DNA of 62,284 bases. Source: Ignavibacteriales bacterium. GTDB taxonomy: Bacteria > Bacteroidota > Ignavibacteria > UBA10030 > UBA8401. The DNA lies in contig JAPLFO010000150.1 of the NCBI GenBank assembly GCA_026390635.1, positions 1 to 62,284 on the forward strand, in the 5' to 3' direction. Below, one piece after another: positions 1,824 through 9,389 of the stretch; the first letter of the stretch is position 1; each line of letters opens with the position of its first letter. Under the pieces are notes generated by a model, which was given only the letters and a program-made list of their open reading frames with translations, was not told where the DNA came from and searched no databases. The translations under genes and the position numbers were made by a program.

Positions 1824-3066
1824 ATGGGTTCGGAAAGCATTAATTTCATTTTCCTCTCTGAACTGCTCGACCTTCCGGTGATCGATGCCGCCACGCTGCA
1901 GAAAGTGGGGACCATCGTCGATCTGGCGGCGACGACAGGCCAGGTGTATCCGAAAGTGCTGGGTCTCATTGTGAAGATCCGGCGTAAGAAAGAACCGGTG
2001 TACATTCCCTGGAATAATGTACGTCGTACCTCGCTGCACGACAATGTCCTTATCGACTACACACCTGAAACCATTCAGGCGCATGCCAGCGCCGGTGATG
2101 CAGAAATCCTGTTGCGTAAGAGCTTTCTGGACAGGCAGCTGATTTCCACCGCCGGATATAAGGTCGTCCGTGTGAATGACCTTCAGCTTCTGCTGGAGAG
2201 CTCGACAAAGGGAAATCCATATCTATGGTTGGTACACGTCGATATCGGGATCAAAGGCCTCCTCCGGCGCCTCGGATTTGTCGGATTTTTCAATATGTTG
2301 TGCCGGTTTCTATTGGATCGTGATCTGCGCGAAAAATTCATTTCCTGGAAAAACGTCCAGCCAACCAGCACCACAAGCATCACCGGTTCACTGCAGTTGA
2401 AACTGGATCCGTCGAAGCTGTCGGAAATCCATCCGGCGGATCTGGCAGATATTGTGGAGGACCTTGGACTCGAAGAGCGTGCGGCATTGCTCGAATCTCT
2501 GGATGCCGAAACGGCGGCAAGCGCATTGCAGGAAATCCCGCTCCGCATCCGGGTGCAGATTGCTGAAACGCTGGAAATAACGAAACTGGCTGCGCTCATC
2601 AATGAAACGCAGCTTGACGAAGCCGTTGACTTACTCGACGAACTTTCTCCGGAAATCAGAAATGCCGTGCTGCACTTGCTGCCCCTTGAGAAAACAGCGG
2701 AGTTGAAAGAGCTCTCGAAGCTCTCCGTCTACGGCGTGGGCAGTATTATGAACTCAGACTTCATCACGGCAAAAGCAACCCAGAGCGTTAGGGAAGTTCG
2801 ACAACGAAGGAAAACTCAAAGGTGTTGTCACGCTGCGCCAGCTTCTGTCCCTGGATCCAGACGTGATTATGGCGGATATCATGTGGGAGAATCTTGTGAC
2901 GGCAACGATAGAGACAAGCATCAAGCGCGTCGCGAAAATATTTTTCAAATATAATTTTGTCGCATTACCGGTAGTGGATGATGATGGAGCGATGCAGGGA
3001 ATCATCACCATGCGCGACGCACTGGAGTCTGTCTATCCGGAAATGAAAGAAGAGGCGCACGCCTGA
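1824..3066 (+). pseudogene. MgtE N-terminal/CBS regulatory protein, interrupted in the first CBS domain
   Basis: The first frame (1824 onward) carries PRC-barrel-like segments (near residues 8-75 and 95-140) and an MgtE-N superhelical domain: IHPADLADIVEDL and repeated LL-E/D motifs at ~210-305. The first CBS domain then begins (SIMNSDFITAKA). At about 2790 the frame breaks. The downstream frame continues the same fold with FDNEGKLKGVVTLRQLL, DIMWENL and a second CBS domain ending at 3066. The hinge is too short: an intact CBS domain would have some 20-25 more residues here, so roughly 75-80 bp, not a multiple of three, appear to be missing. No transport domain is encoded. In MgtE the N and CBS domains sense cytosolic Mg2+ and gate the channel. 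Here they precede a separate transporter gene by 2 bp, so a regulatory-subunit role is inferred. The lesion may be an assembly error. Confidence 0.75.
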
Positions 3067-3068
3067 GT

Positions 3069-4325
3069 ATGAAGCTCATCGAGAATCTGAAATCGCATCC
3101 GGCTCTCCGCAATCTTTTCATCTTTCTGAGTATTGTCGGTCCCGGCATCATCACCGGCAGCGTCGACAACGATGCAGGCGGTATTACGACGTACTCGGTA
3201 GCGGGGGCGAAATACGGCTATACCTTGCTATGGACGCTGATTCCTTCTTTCATCGCACTGCTGGCGGTGCAGGAGATGAATGCGAGGATGGGGATTGTGA
3301 CCGGAAAAGGTCTTGCCGATCTCATCCGGGAAAATTTCGGCGTCAAGATCACATTCTATATTTTTATTTTCCTTCTGGTGGCGGACGTCGGTAACACCGC
3401 GACGGAATTTGCCGGTGTCGCAGGAAGCATGAACGTCCTCGGGATCAGCAAATATCTTTCGGTGCCGCTCGCGGCGGTGGCAGTGTGGATTCTTGTGGTG
3501 AAGGGGAATTACCGATTGTCGGAAAAAATATTTCTAATCTTCAGCGTTTTTCTTCTGTCCTATGTTGTTTCGGCATTGCTGGCAAAGCCCGATTGGAGCG
3601 CAATAGGTGCCGCAATTATCGCGCCGAGGGTTCAATGGAATCGCGACTACATCAGCATGGTGCTTGGCCTGGTGGGTACCACCGTGGCGCCGTGGATGCA
3701 GTTCTATATGCAATCGTCGGTGATCGAGAAAGGGATCAAGATCGGTGATTACAAATTCACGATCTGGGATGTCGTGCTCGGATGTATTGCGACGGTGGTG
3801 GTCGCGTTCTTTATTATTGTCTCCTGTGCGGCGACGCTGCACGCGAATGGCATTCAGATTGAAGAAGCAAAAGATGCGGCATCGGCATTACGGCCTCTTG
3901 CAGGCGCCCTTGCATCGCAGTTGTTTGCCTTCGGACTTTTTGTTGCATCCATCTTTTCGGCGACAATTCTGCCGCTGGCAACTGCATTCTATGTCTGTGA
4001 GGCATTCGGCTTTGAAGCAGGGATTGATAAGAAATTTTCTGATGCACCGCAATTCTATTCGCTTTTCACAGCGATCATTCTTGCCGGCGTCGTGATTATT
4101 CTTCTGCCCGGGGCCCCGTTGATCGAAATCACGATCTGGACCCAGGTGCTGAATGCAATTCTGCTCCCCGTGGTATTGATCTGCATGATGATCATCATCA
4201 ATAAAAAAGAAATCATGGAAGAATACACCAACAACAGCTTGCAGAATGCTGTTGGGTGGGTCACATCCATCGTCCTCATTCTGCTGAGTTCATTCCTCCT
4301 TATCACCGGGTCCGGCCTTGGATAG
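3069..4325 (+). CDS. Nramp-related divalent metal transporter, probably for Mg2+ (NRMT-like)
   Basis: A 418-residue inner-membrane protein with about 11 hydrophobic segments and the Nramp fold order. In ordinary Nramp Mn/Fe transporters helix 1 carries DPGN and helix 6 carries MPHN. Here helix 1 has SVDNDAGG (residues 31-38) and helix 6 has TTVAPWMQFY (204-213), so the methionine that selects transition metals is replaced by alanine. These substitutions are typical of the Nramp-related magnesium transporters (NRMTs). The gene starts 2 bp after the MgtE-N/CBS gene, whose domains normally sense magnesium, which supports Mg2+ as substrate. It overlaps the following P-loop gene by 8 bp. The Nramp superfamily assignment is strong. 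The Mg2+ assignment is an inference from motif and context. Confidence 0.85.
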   Translation: MKLIENLKSHPALRNLFIFLSIVGPGIITGSVDNDAGGITTYSVAGAKYGYTLLWTLIPSFIALLAVQEMNARMGIVTGKGLADLIRENFGVKITFYIFIFLLVADVGNTATEFAGVAGSMNVLGISKYLSVPLAAVAVWILVVKGNYRLSEKIFLIFSVFLLSYVVSALLAKPDWSAIGAAIIAPRVQWNRDYISMVLGLVGTTVAPWMQFYMQSSVIEKGIKIGDYKFTIWDVVLGCIATVVVAFFIIVSCAATLHANGIQIEEAKDAASALRPLAGALASQLFAFGLFVASIFSATILPLATAFYVCEAFGFEAGIDKKFSDAPQFYSLFTAIILAGVVIILLPGAPLIEITIWTQVLNAILLPVVLICMMIIINKKEIMEEYTNNSLQNAVGWVTSIVLILLSSFLLITGSGLG

Positions 4326-5328
4326 ATCCGGCTGCACGTGTATCGGCGTTGTCGGCACGGCGAAGAATACCGGCAAAACCACAACGCTTTCTTTCCTTCT
4401 GGTGCAGGCAACCCGCAGAAATATTGCGGTCGGCGTCACCAGTATAGGGTATGACGGTGAAGACATCGACACCGTCACGTCACTGCCCAAGCCGCGTATG
4501 TCATTGGAACCAGGGGTGCTTGTCACTACGGCGGAACGCTGTCTGCCGCTCGCGACAGCAGGGTATGAAATACTTTCCCGCACCGGTGTTCAGACAGCGC
4601 TGGGTGAAATTCTTCTCTTGCGCGTTATCCGTGAAGGACTCGTTGTAACAGCCGGCCCGCACAAACGATCGTTGATCGAACCGATGTGTGAATTGCTGGG
4701 CCGCCACGGAGCATCTCTCATCTTCATCGACGGAGCGTTGAATCGCATAGCGCCGATGTCTGCCGCAGAGAAAATTATCTTTACGACGGGCGCTGCGCGC
4801 AACACTGACCCCAGCGTCCTTGCTGAAGAAATGCGAGCCATCGAACATATCTTGTCTATTCCTCTTGCCGAAGGCATGCATGCGCAGGTTATTCGTCCCT
4901 CACTGTTTGATGCGGAAGATGTTGCCGATACCGTGAAATTGCTTTCGTCCTCAAACCGTTTCCTTGAGATGACACAAATGATTTCTTTGGCGGCGCTGTC
5001 GGCTCTTGCGGCACATACATCGACGGTGCTTCCAGCCATGCTGATACTGCCCGACCCGATGGTTCTGCTTCTGGCCGGCGATCCTGTGCAGACCACGAAA
5101 ATGCTGGGTCGGCTCGCAGCACGCGGTTGTCAAATACGATATCGACGCTCACCGGCACTCGGCGCCATAACCGTCAATCCCTTTTATCCAAAACTCGAAT
5201 TGTTCACATACACATCGGCTTTTGTGGATAAGATTGAATTACTTTCCGCGATGCGCCAGGCAGTCTCTGTACCGGTATACGATGTAAAAGAGGGCGGGGC
5301 GGAAGAACTTTTCGATCGACTAGTGTAA
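4318..5328 (+). CDS. P-loop nucleotide-binding protein of unknown role
   Basis: A 336-residue soluble protein with a TTG start inside the end of the transporter gene. A clear Walker A motif, GTAKNTGKTT, lies at residues 13-22. Later segments IFIDGALNR and FTTGAARN look like Walker B and a nucleotide-sensing loop of a SIMIBI-class GTPase or ATPase. There is no signal peptide or membrane segment. From memory, a small P-loop protein with a GxAKNxGKTTT motif occurs beside B12-dependent aminomutase genes (a KamB-type reactivase component). The B12 enzyme 2.7 kb upstream makes that link tempting, but I cannot verify it. The 8-bp overlap suggests translation coupled to the metal transporter. Function is unassigned. 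Confidence 0.7.
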   Translation: MDRSGCTCIGVVGTAKNTGKTTTLSFLLVQATRRNIAVGVTSIGYDGEDIDTVTSLPKPRMSLEPGVLVTTAERCLPLATAGYEILSRTGVQTALGEILLLRVIREGLVVTAGPHKRSLIEPMCELLGRHGASLIFIDGALNRIAPMSAAEKIIFTTGAARNTDPSVLAEEMRAIEHILSIPLAEGMHAQVIRPSLFDAEDVADTVKLLSSSNRFLEMTQMISLAALSALAAHTSTVLPAMLILPDPMVLLLAGDPVQTTKMLGRLAARGCQIRYRRSPALGAITVNPFYPKLELFTYTSAFVDKIELLSAMRQAVSVPVYDVKEGGAEELFDRLV

Positions 5329-8249: not shown

Positions 8250-8305
8250 CCTTGTAGGTGTCAGGCATGCCTGACGCCTACAGGGCATGCCTGACACCTA
8301 CAAGG
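8250..8305. repeat. Perfect 22-bp inverted repeat between mutS and the DUF1611 gene
   Basis: Arms at 8250-8271 and 8284-8305 are exact reverse complements around a 12-nt loop, and the loop itself can pair with the left arm as an alternative hairpin (TGTAGGTGTCA with TGACGCCTACA). It lies where two convergent genes meet. The stop codon of the minus-strand gene (8298-8300) is inside the right arm. It may serve as a bidirectional terminator or be a mobile palindromic unit. There is no T-tract. Confidence 0.8.
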
Positions 8306-9389
8306 CTTTTCTGGCACCGACAATGCCAAAATACCGCAACAACGCATCCGCAAGCACCGCACCCCCAAAACGAAACGTATCGATCGTCGGAAGGCCGGTT
8401 TCATTTTCAATTTTCTTCGCGGCAGCCATACTCTCTTCATCCGTCAATCCGATGGAATTGATGCCGATGCCGACGACTTTGGTCGGACGAAAGAGATCGA
8501 TGGCCTCTTCATGAAAGCGAATCAGGCGGCGCAATTCCCGCAGCGGAATTCCGTAGTCATCCCTAACGCGTGTTGGTTGATGACAGAGAATCATGGCATC
8601 CGGCATTGTTCCATGCATCAAACCGAGAGTGACGCTGGAATATCCTTGATGCGTTAGTGCGCCCTGTCCCTCGACAAAAATATAATCATATCCGGCTGCG
8701 TCGGATCGGTCGATTTCCTTTTCAATGCTGCCGGCAATATAGTCGCCAATGACCGAATCGACGCACACGCCCTTGCCCGAAATCATGATGCCGGTCTGTC
8801 CCGTGCCGATGAAATCGCTTCTTAGCTTCCGTGCAAGAAATTCGCGGTGAATGCCAAGCATTGTCGTCATCTTGCCGATGTTACAGTCGCTGCCGACGGC
8901 GAGGATAGTTTTTGCCCTGCGGTTCTTCCAGTTTCCTTTTGACACAACTTCATGATTCGGATCGATCTTTCGCCAGTCGGTGATCGCCGCGCCATGTGCG
9001 CGGGCGAGTTCGGCAAAAGAAGCATCGTCAGAGAGTATCGTATGGAGCCCGTTGAGAATATGAAGCCCGCTTTGAAGCGCCGATGCGATCATGTTTCGCC
9101 AGGACTCCGGCAACCGTCCGCCGGGAGGCGCAATACCGATCAGGAGATGTGTGGGGGAGAAGTGAAGACCTTCCTCCAACGATGCGACGACCGGAATATT
9201 GCCGCCGTAACCAAGAACCTGTTGCGAAGTGGTCCCCGCCTTCGTGCTGTCGATGATCGCCACAACTTCTTCATCAAGATAAGCGATGGCACCGTTCGCC
9301 GTTTTTGAACGCAGCGGACTGAATTTCTCTTCAGCAAGGATAAGAATTCGGCGATGCGATGATGGAGTATGAAAAATATCTGATATCAT
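8298..9389 (-). CDS. DUF1611 family P-loop protein
   Basis: A 363-residue soluble protein. The first ~150 residues form a Rossmann-like domain that includes the segment LLIGIAPPGG. The second domain has a P-loop, GSDCNIGKMTT (166-176), followed by FIGTGQTGI, VDSVIGDY and IFVEGQGAL, all typical of the DUF1611 family. Some members (DgcN) have been linked to D-glutamate catabolism, but no partner genes for that pathway are visible here, so I leave the reaction open. It lies downstream of xerD on the same strand with a 78-bp gap, so a shared transcript with pgpH-xerD is possible. Its 3' end is embedded in a perfect inverted repeat. Confidence 0.8.
   Translation of the reverse strand: MISDIFHTPSSHRRILILAEEKFSPLRSKTANGAIAYLDEEVVAIIDSTKAGTTSQQVLGYGGNIPVVASLEEGLHFSPTHLLIGIAPPGGRLPESWRNMIASALQSGLHILNGLHTILSDDASFAELARAHGAAITDWRKIDPNHEVVSKGNWKNRRAKTILAVGSDCNIGKMTTMLGIHREFLARKLRSDFIGTGQTGIMISGKGVCVDSVIGDYIAGSIEKEIDRSDAAGYDYIFVEGQGALTHQGYSSVTLGLMHGTMPDAMILCHQPTRVRDDYGIPLRELRRLIRFHEEAIDLFRPTKVVGIGINSIGLTDEESMAAAKKIENETGLPTIDTFRFGGAVLADALLRYFGIVGARKAL

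Follow-up and report, generated by a model that had tools for sequence, protein, structure and literature searches.

The window analysed here is a 62,284-nt contig of an Ignavibacteriales bacterium. On its + strand, a gene for a putative MgtE-derived regulator (the sensor, below) lies upstream of one for an NRMT-type, Nramp-related divalent metal transporter (3069..4325, 418 aa, intact; PF01566, E 1.2e-99). The TGA closing the sensor frame (3064-3066) is separated from the transporter's ATG (3069) by 2 bp, as the preliminary description had it. Read as it stands, the sensor ORF (1824..2954, + strand) encodes 376 aa: a PRC-barrel domain (1842..2063; PF05239, E 2e-5, residues 7-80); a second PRC-like module (2103..2363, residues ~94-180), its approximate boundaries taken from the model of an intact relative (L035) and from sequence conservation in all relatives; an MgtE_N domain (2427..2717; PF03448, E 1.9e-19, residues 202-298), which contains the equivalents of D91 and D95 of Thermus thermophilus MgtE (TtMgtE); and the start of a first CBS domain (CBS1), followed by about 50 residues out of frame. 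A domain search found no MgtE channel domain (PF01769) in this ORF.

The preliminary description had proposed MgtE_N and CBS domains encoded without the channel. The MgtE_N domain and the missing channel stand; the PRC modules went unmentioned, and a break in the gene was overlooked, which puts most of the CBS pair in another frame. The CBS match in the ORF from 1824 is an N-terminal remnant (2736..2798, the final stretch in the original frame) of 12.5 bits, under the cut-off. The true CBS sequence, at 63 bits, is in a separate frame (2800..3066 with its stop: the remainder of CBS1, and CBS2 with the equivalent of TtMgtE D247), whose last coding base is 3063, followed by the TGA at 3064-3066. 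In an alignment with 14 intact relatives, 20 residues of CBS1 (60 nt) are replaced by a single nt at 2799, leaving a 59-nt gap at 2798/2799 (deletion junction 2798..2800), the source of the frameshift. The sensor ORF of all 14 close relatives is uninterrupted, at 429-433 aa, and ends at, or a few bases from, the Nramp start; MgtE_N and a CBS pair are found in one protein in these intact relatives and not in the window, where the frameshift cuts the pair. To judge from the sequence, the translated product of the window gene would lose CBS2 and the D247-equivalent residue.

The gap is either a real mutation or an assembly error. If it is real, the feedback considered below would be lost and the transporter functional alone; with the sensor frameshifted, the transporter is, at least in this assembly, without an intact partner. 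That the gene is actually intact, and the gap an error in one contig of a fragmented genome, is a distinct possibility, short of probable, and is compatible with the other readings given below. The assembly is in 202 contigs (at 96% completeness), the sensor is intact in all relatives, and the out-of-frame remainder still codes for a well-scoring CBS2, so that any decay would have to be recent; on the other hand, a gap of 59 nt is atypical for a homopolymer error. Programmed frameshifting was also considered, and rejected because some 20 residues are gone at the junction and the relatives are read in a single frame.

The transporter is 75-81% identical to its 14 orthologues. In profile comparisons its best solved relative is EleNRMT (7QIA), aligned over the full length at 407 bits, as against at most 109 bits for MntH structures; a quick tree places it with EleNRMT as well, at weak support (0.197). 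Comparison with structures and orthologues aligns the helix-1 metal-site motif DAGG (3171..3182) with canonical DPGN, and the helix-6 motif TTVA (3678..3689), at the place of canonical AxxM, with the ATVA of the MntH entry shown, which we take to be a Met-to-Ala mutant. DAGG and TTVA are instances of the DxxG in helix 1 and TxxA/T in helix 6 that replace DxxN and A/CxxM in the NRMT class (PMC8806188), and the same motif class is common to all 14 orthologues and to nearly all of the sensor-linked partners described below. The metal site is NRMT-like, with DAGG and TTVA as the decisive letters rather than the "APWM" of the earlier assignment as such. EleNRMT moves Mg2+ and Mn2+, not Ca2+, and without proton coupling (PMC8806188); by analogy, then, the DxxG-TxxA class predicts Mg2+ competence without exclusivity.

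An NRMT-type transporter adjoined by a gene for the MgtE cytosolic domain without its channel, albeit frameshifted in the window, is the arrangement of the nrmT operons, and the locus is probably a member of this known family. Shin et al. 2014 (PMC4072509) had already described the nrmT clade and the MgtE-like gene that its members have in common, and had suggested feedback from the cytoplasm, which makes the hypothesis of the preliminary description, a two-component Mg2+ uptake system with a borrowed sensor, a rediscovery. A literature search of a limited collection returned no other paper linking Nramp with MgtE_N or PRC.

Conserved adjacency, which had been proposed as a check on that hypothesis, came out strongly in its favor. 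For each of the 14 close orthologues, the sensor gene directly precedes that of the transporter. When named genomes were searched with the sensor alignment, 80 sensor loci from many phyla emerged, and in 74 of these a same-strand NRMT-type Nramp gene adjoins: 70 in the order sensor-Nramp, with a median spacing of about 15 nt, and 4 in the order Nramp-sensor. The linked loci span Bacteroidota/Ignavibacteria, delta-proteobacterial groups, Acidobacteriota, and others. The six unlinked loci comprise four from Nitrospirota, L094 from Actinomycetota, which has a channel-like domain, and L107, on a short contig; by whole-genome searches, five of these six genomes encode a clear NRMT, scoring 458-550 bits. 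All four Nitrospirota genomes have both genes, the NRMT having no adjacent sensor. With their sensors (L093, L095, L103, and L104) apart from their NRMTs (L153-L156), they offer a naturally occurring setting for action in trans.

The same linkage appears within the window's own phylum: from a draw of 296 genomes, 30 NRMT-type loci were retrieved, and all 30 have a sensor within 1.5 kb (in L144, a fragment at a contig end). Gene order in this draw is mostly reversed relative to the window, and in one family the transporter always comes first; the NRMT-first order is that of L115, from the window's own family, and of L131-L152, from one large family of the phylum. Of 127 Nramp sequences analysed jointly, 101 are sensor-linked, and virtually every one of these is of NDAGG type; no sensor adjoins any of 19 Nramps of canonical (MPH) or DDPSG type within the flanking sequence examined. 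Sensor coupling is therefore specific to the NRMT clade and independent of gene order. Chance adjacency is rejected by these surveys (the 14 orthologues, the 80 loci, the phylum draw, and the joint Nramp set). Sensor and transporter distances are correlated (0.91), mostly through common descent, and this is no proof of contact.

Two Actinomycetota proteins (L089:4866-6797 and L094:4878-6800) carry, beyond PRC-MgtE_N-CBS, a C-terminal membrane domain with a weak match to the MgtE channel (PF01769) that is above the cut-off. That of L089 adjoins an Nramp, whose helix-1 motif is altered to NGAS. These channel-fused proteins suggest that the sensor originated from a PRC-containing MgtE that lost its channel.

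The alignment of the intact sensor to TtMgtE begins at residue 25 and runs to about 255. Compared with known folds, the sensor model comes closest to the MgtE cytosolic domain, which is preceded in it by two beta-rich PRC-like modules, the second of them visible in the predicted structure of L035; at a pTM of 0.42 the relative placement of domains is uncertain, and the model was used for domain layout only. Acidic residues at Mg2+ sites of TtMgtE that were defined by mutation (PMC5882242) fare differently here. D95 of Mg6 is retained in 93 of 94 relatives. D91/D247 of Mg4 are kept by every one of the 14 close relatives and by about two-thirds of the whole relative set, being replaced in about one-third; the residues of Mg5 (D226/D250) and Mg7 (E59) are mostly lost in the close relatives. 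Among residues that contact ATP in TtMgtE (PMC5529423), Y170, R187, and F227 are retained in all 14 close relatives, while N203 and D188 are lost in the close group. The pattern fits a reduced Mg2+ sensor, perhaps nucleotide-tuned, with no pore left in the same protein for it to act on. New here are the PRC modules, the retention of Mg4/Mg6 as against Mg5/Mg7, the channel-fused Actinomycetota relatives, and the break in the window copy.

The window's own genome encodes one CorA and, as far as PF01769 detects it, no MgtE channel anywhere. Neither the window nor any of 13 related loci has an Rfam match to an M-box riboswitch, and riboswitch control was rejected for this reason; an M-box is not required for an nrmT operon, being present upstream of only a subset of them (PMC4072509). 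Promoter-like sites were no commoner than in shuffled sequence, and terminators only slightly commoner. The pair is flanked by genes at 19-1581 and 4318-5328, as though it had landed inside a cluster for lysine degradation: the upstream gene has a weak lysine 5,6-aminomutase-like match, far under cut-offs, and the downstream one resembles a KamB-like reactivase (197.6 bits against a cut-off of 210), so that both seem to belong to a lysine 5,6-aminomutase set. Such neighbors were not found in the short flanks available for the relatives, and the position of the pair is accordingly not conserved. Close orthologues come for the most part from a different family within the order, and the gene is absent from most genomes of the window's family. 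Further along the window, on the minus strand, 8298-9389 encodes a DUF1611 protein related to DgcN (242 bits against a family cut-off of 480).

We consider it fairly likely that the locus belongs to the nrmT family and combines an NRMT with an MgtE-derived feedback regulator, the latter cut in this genome. The NRMT would admit Mg2+ (and Mn2+) as a LeuT-fold carrier without proton coupling, and the upstream gene would give rise to a soluble PRC-PRC-MgtE_N-CBS-CBS regulator, with its origin in the cytosolic gate of an MgtE channel that contained PRC. When intact, this regulator most likely binds cytosolic Mg2+, presumably the physiological signal rather than Mn2+, at the interface of its N-domain and CBS2 (the D91/D95 and D247 equivalents), and its CBS pair probably binds nucleotide; it might then contact the NRMT through its PRC or CBS part and damp uptake at high Mg2+. 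Put more broadly, and only tentatively, a Mg2+-sensing gate that evolved in a channel may have become a separate subunit that inhibits an unrelated LeuT-fold carrier in trans at high cytosolic Mg2+ or ATP, the channel-like Actinomycetota loci being relics of the hand-over.

The NRMT motif and relatedness, the adjacency, the retention of Mg4/Mg6, the MgtE fold match, and the L089 fusion all favor a feedback regulator. Against it are the loss of most Mg5/Mg7 residues in close relatives (in MgtE, both are needed for closing), the replacement of Mg4 in about one-third of relatives, the lack of an M-box, and the frameshift in the window copy. Shin et al. add three further points: nrmT transporters are active in B. 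subtilis without the MgtE-like protein; co-expressing it gave no better rescue; and the NrmT of A. capsulatum, with an adjacent MgtE-like gene and without a riboswitch, acts mainly on Mn2+ (PMC4072509). For the two-component Mg2+ system as first described, then, the adjacency and the NRMT-like motif hold up, while rescue without the sensor, a sensor-linked member of Mn2+ type, and the transport of both metals by EleNRMT leave Mg2+ specificity and sensor control unsupported; for the window copy, with its broken gene, the same holds of a functional sensor.

The A. capsulatum result also raises an alternative, that the pair serves to take up Mn2+ (or both Mn2+ and Mg2+), with a sensor responding to Mn2+ or nucleotides and not to Mg2+. 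There, NrmT gave full rescue of a Mn2+-import mutant, and to rescue a Mg2+ mutant it needed millimolar Mg2+ (PMC4072509); EleNRMT also carries Mn2+ (PMC8806188). The depleted Mg5/Mg7 sites and the invariant ATP-contact trio of the close relatives can be read in the same way, and no canonical MntH turned up in the window's own genome, where the sole Nramp match at E <= 1e-20 is the window transporter. However, the helix-6 methionine that favors transition metals is an alanine in this transporter, as in EleNRMT, and the Mg4/Mg6 residues persist in close relatives; on balance this alternative seems unlikely.

PRC barrels are general protein-contact modules, which would suit a different role again: the MgtE-like protein might be an assembly, membrane-anchoring, or metal-chaperone factor for the NRMT, and not a gate. 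Shin et al. list metal chaperone activity among the alternatives (PMC4072509). Such a role is hard to square with the conservation of acidic MgtE Mg-site residues in the sensor, or with nrmT transporters that function in B. subtilis without any MgtE-like protein, and we think it quite improbable.

To return to the feedback regulator, the question of what NRMT's MgtE-like partner does dates from 2014. A linkage that is limited to one clade and survives changes of order and location, together with the retention of a subset of Mg2+ sites, makes the feedback idea directly testable, with few mutants. To this the window copy itself contributes little except, possibly, a case of natural sensor loss.

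Among known systems, the nrmT operons (Ca_c0685 and Ca_c3329 of Clostridium acetobutylicum; Acidobacterium capsulatum) likewise have an NRMT-type transporter beside a gene encoding the N-terminal, cytosolic part of MgtE, and in C. acetobutylicum a split sensor gene is known too. Compared with these, the window has no M-box riboswitch, its sensor is broken by the 59-nt gap inside CBS1, and that sensor contains PRC modules, of which the available part of Shin et al. describes none. EleNRMT, from a different bacterium (Eggerthella lenta; Ramanadane et al. 2022), is of the same DxxG, TxxA class. Thermus thermophilus MgtE (2YVX, 2ZY9, 5X9H) can be aligned through its N domain and CBS pair, and has its Mg4/Mg6 residues in common with the intact close relatives of the window sensor; relative to it, the sensor has no channel domain, has gained PRC modules, and has mostly lost Mg5/Mg7.
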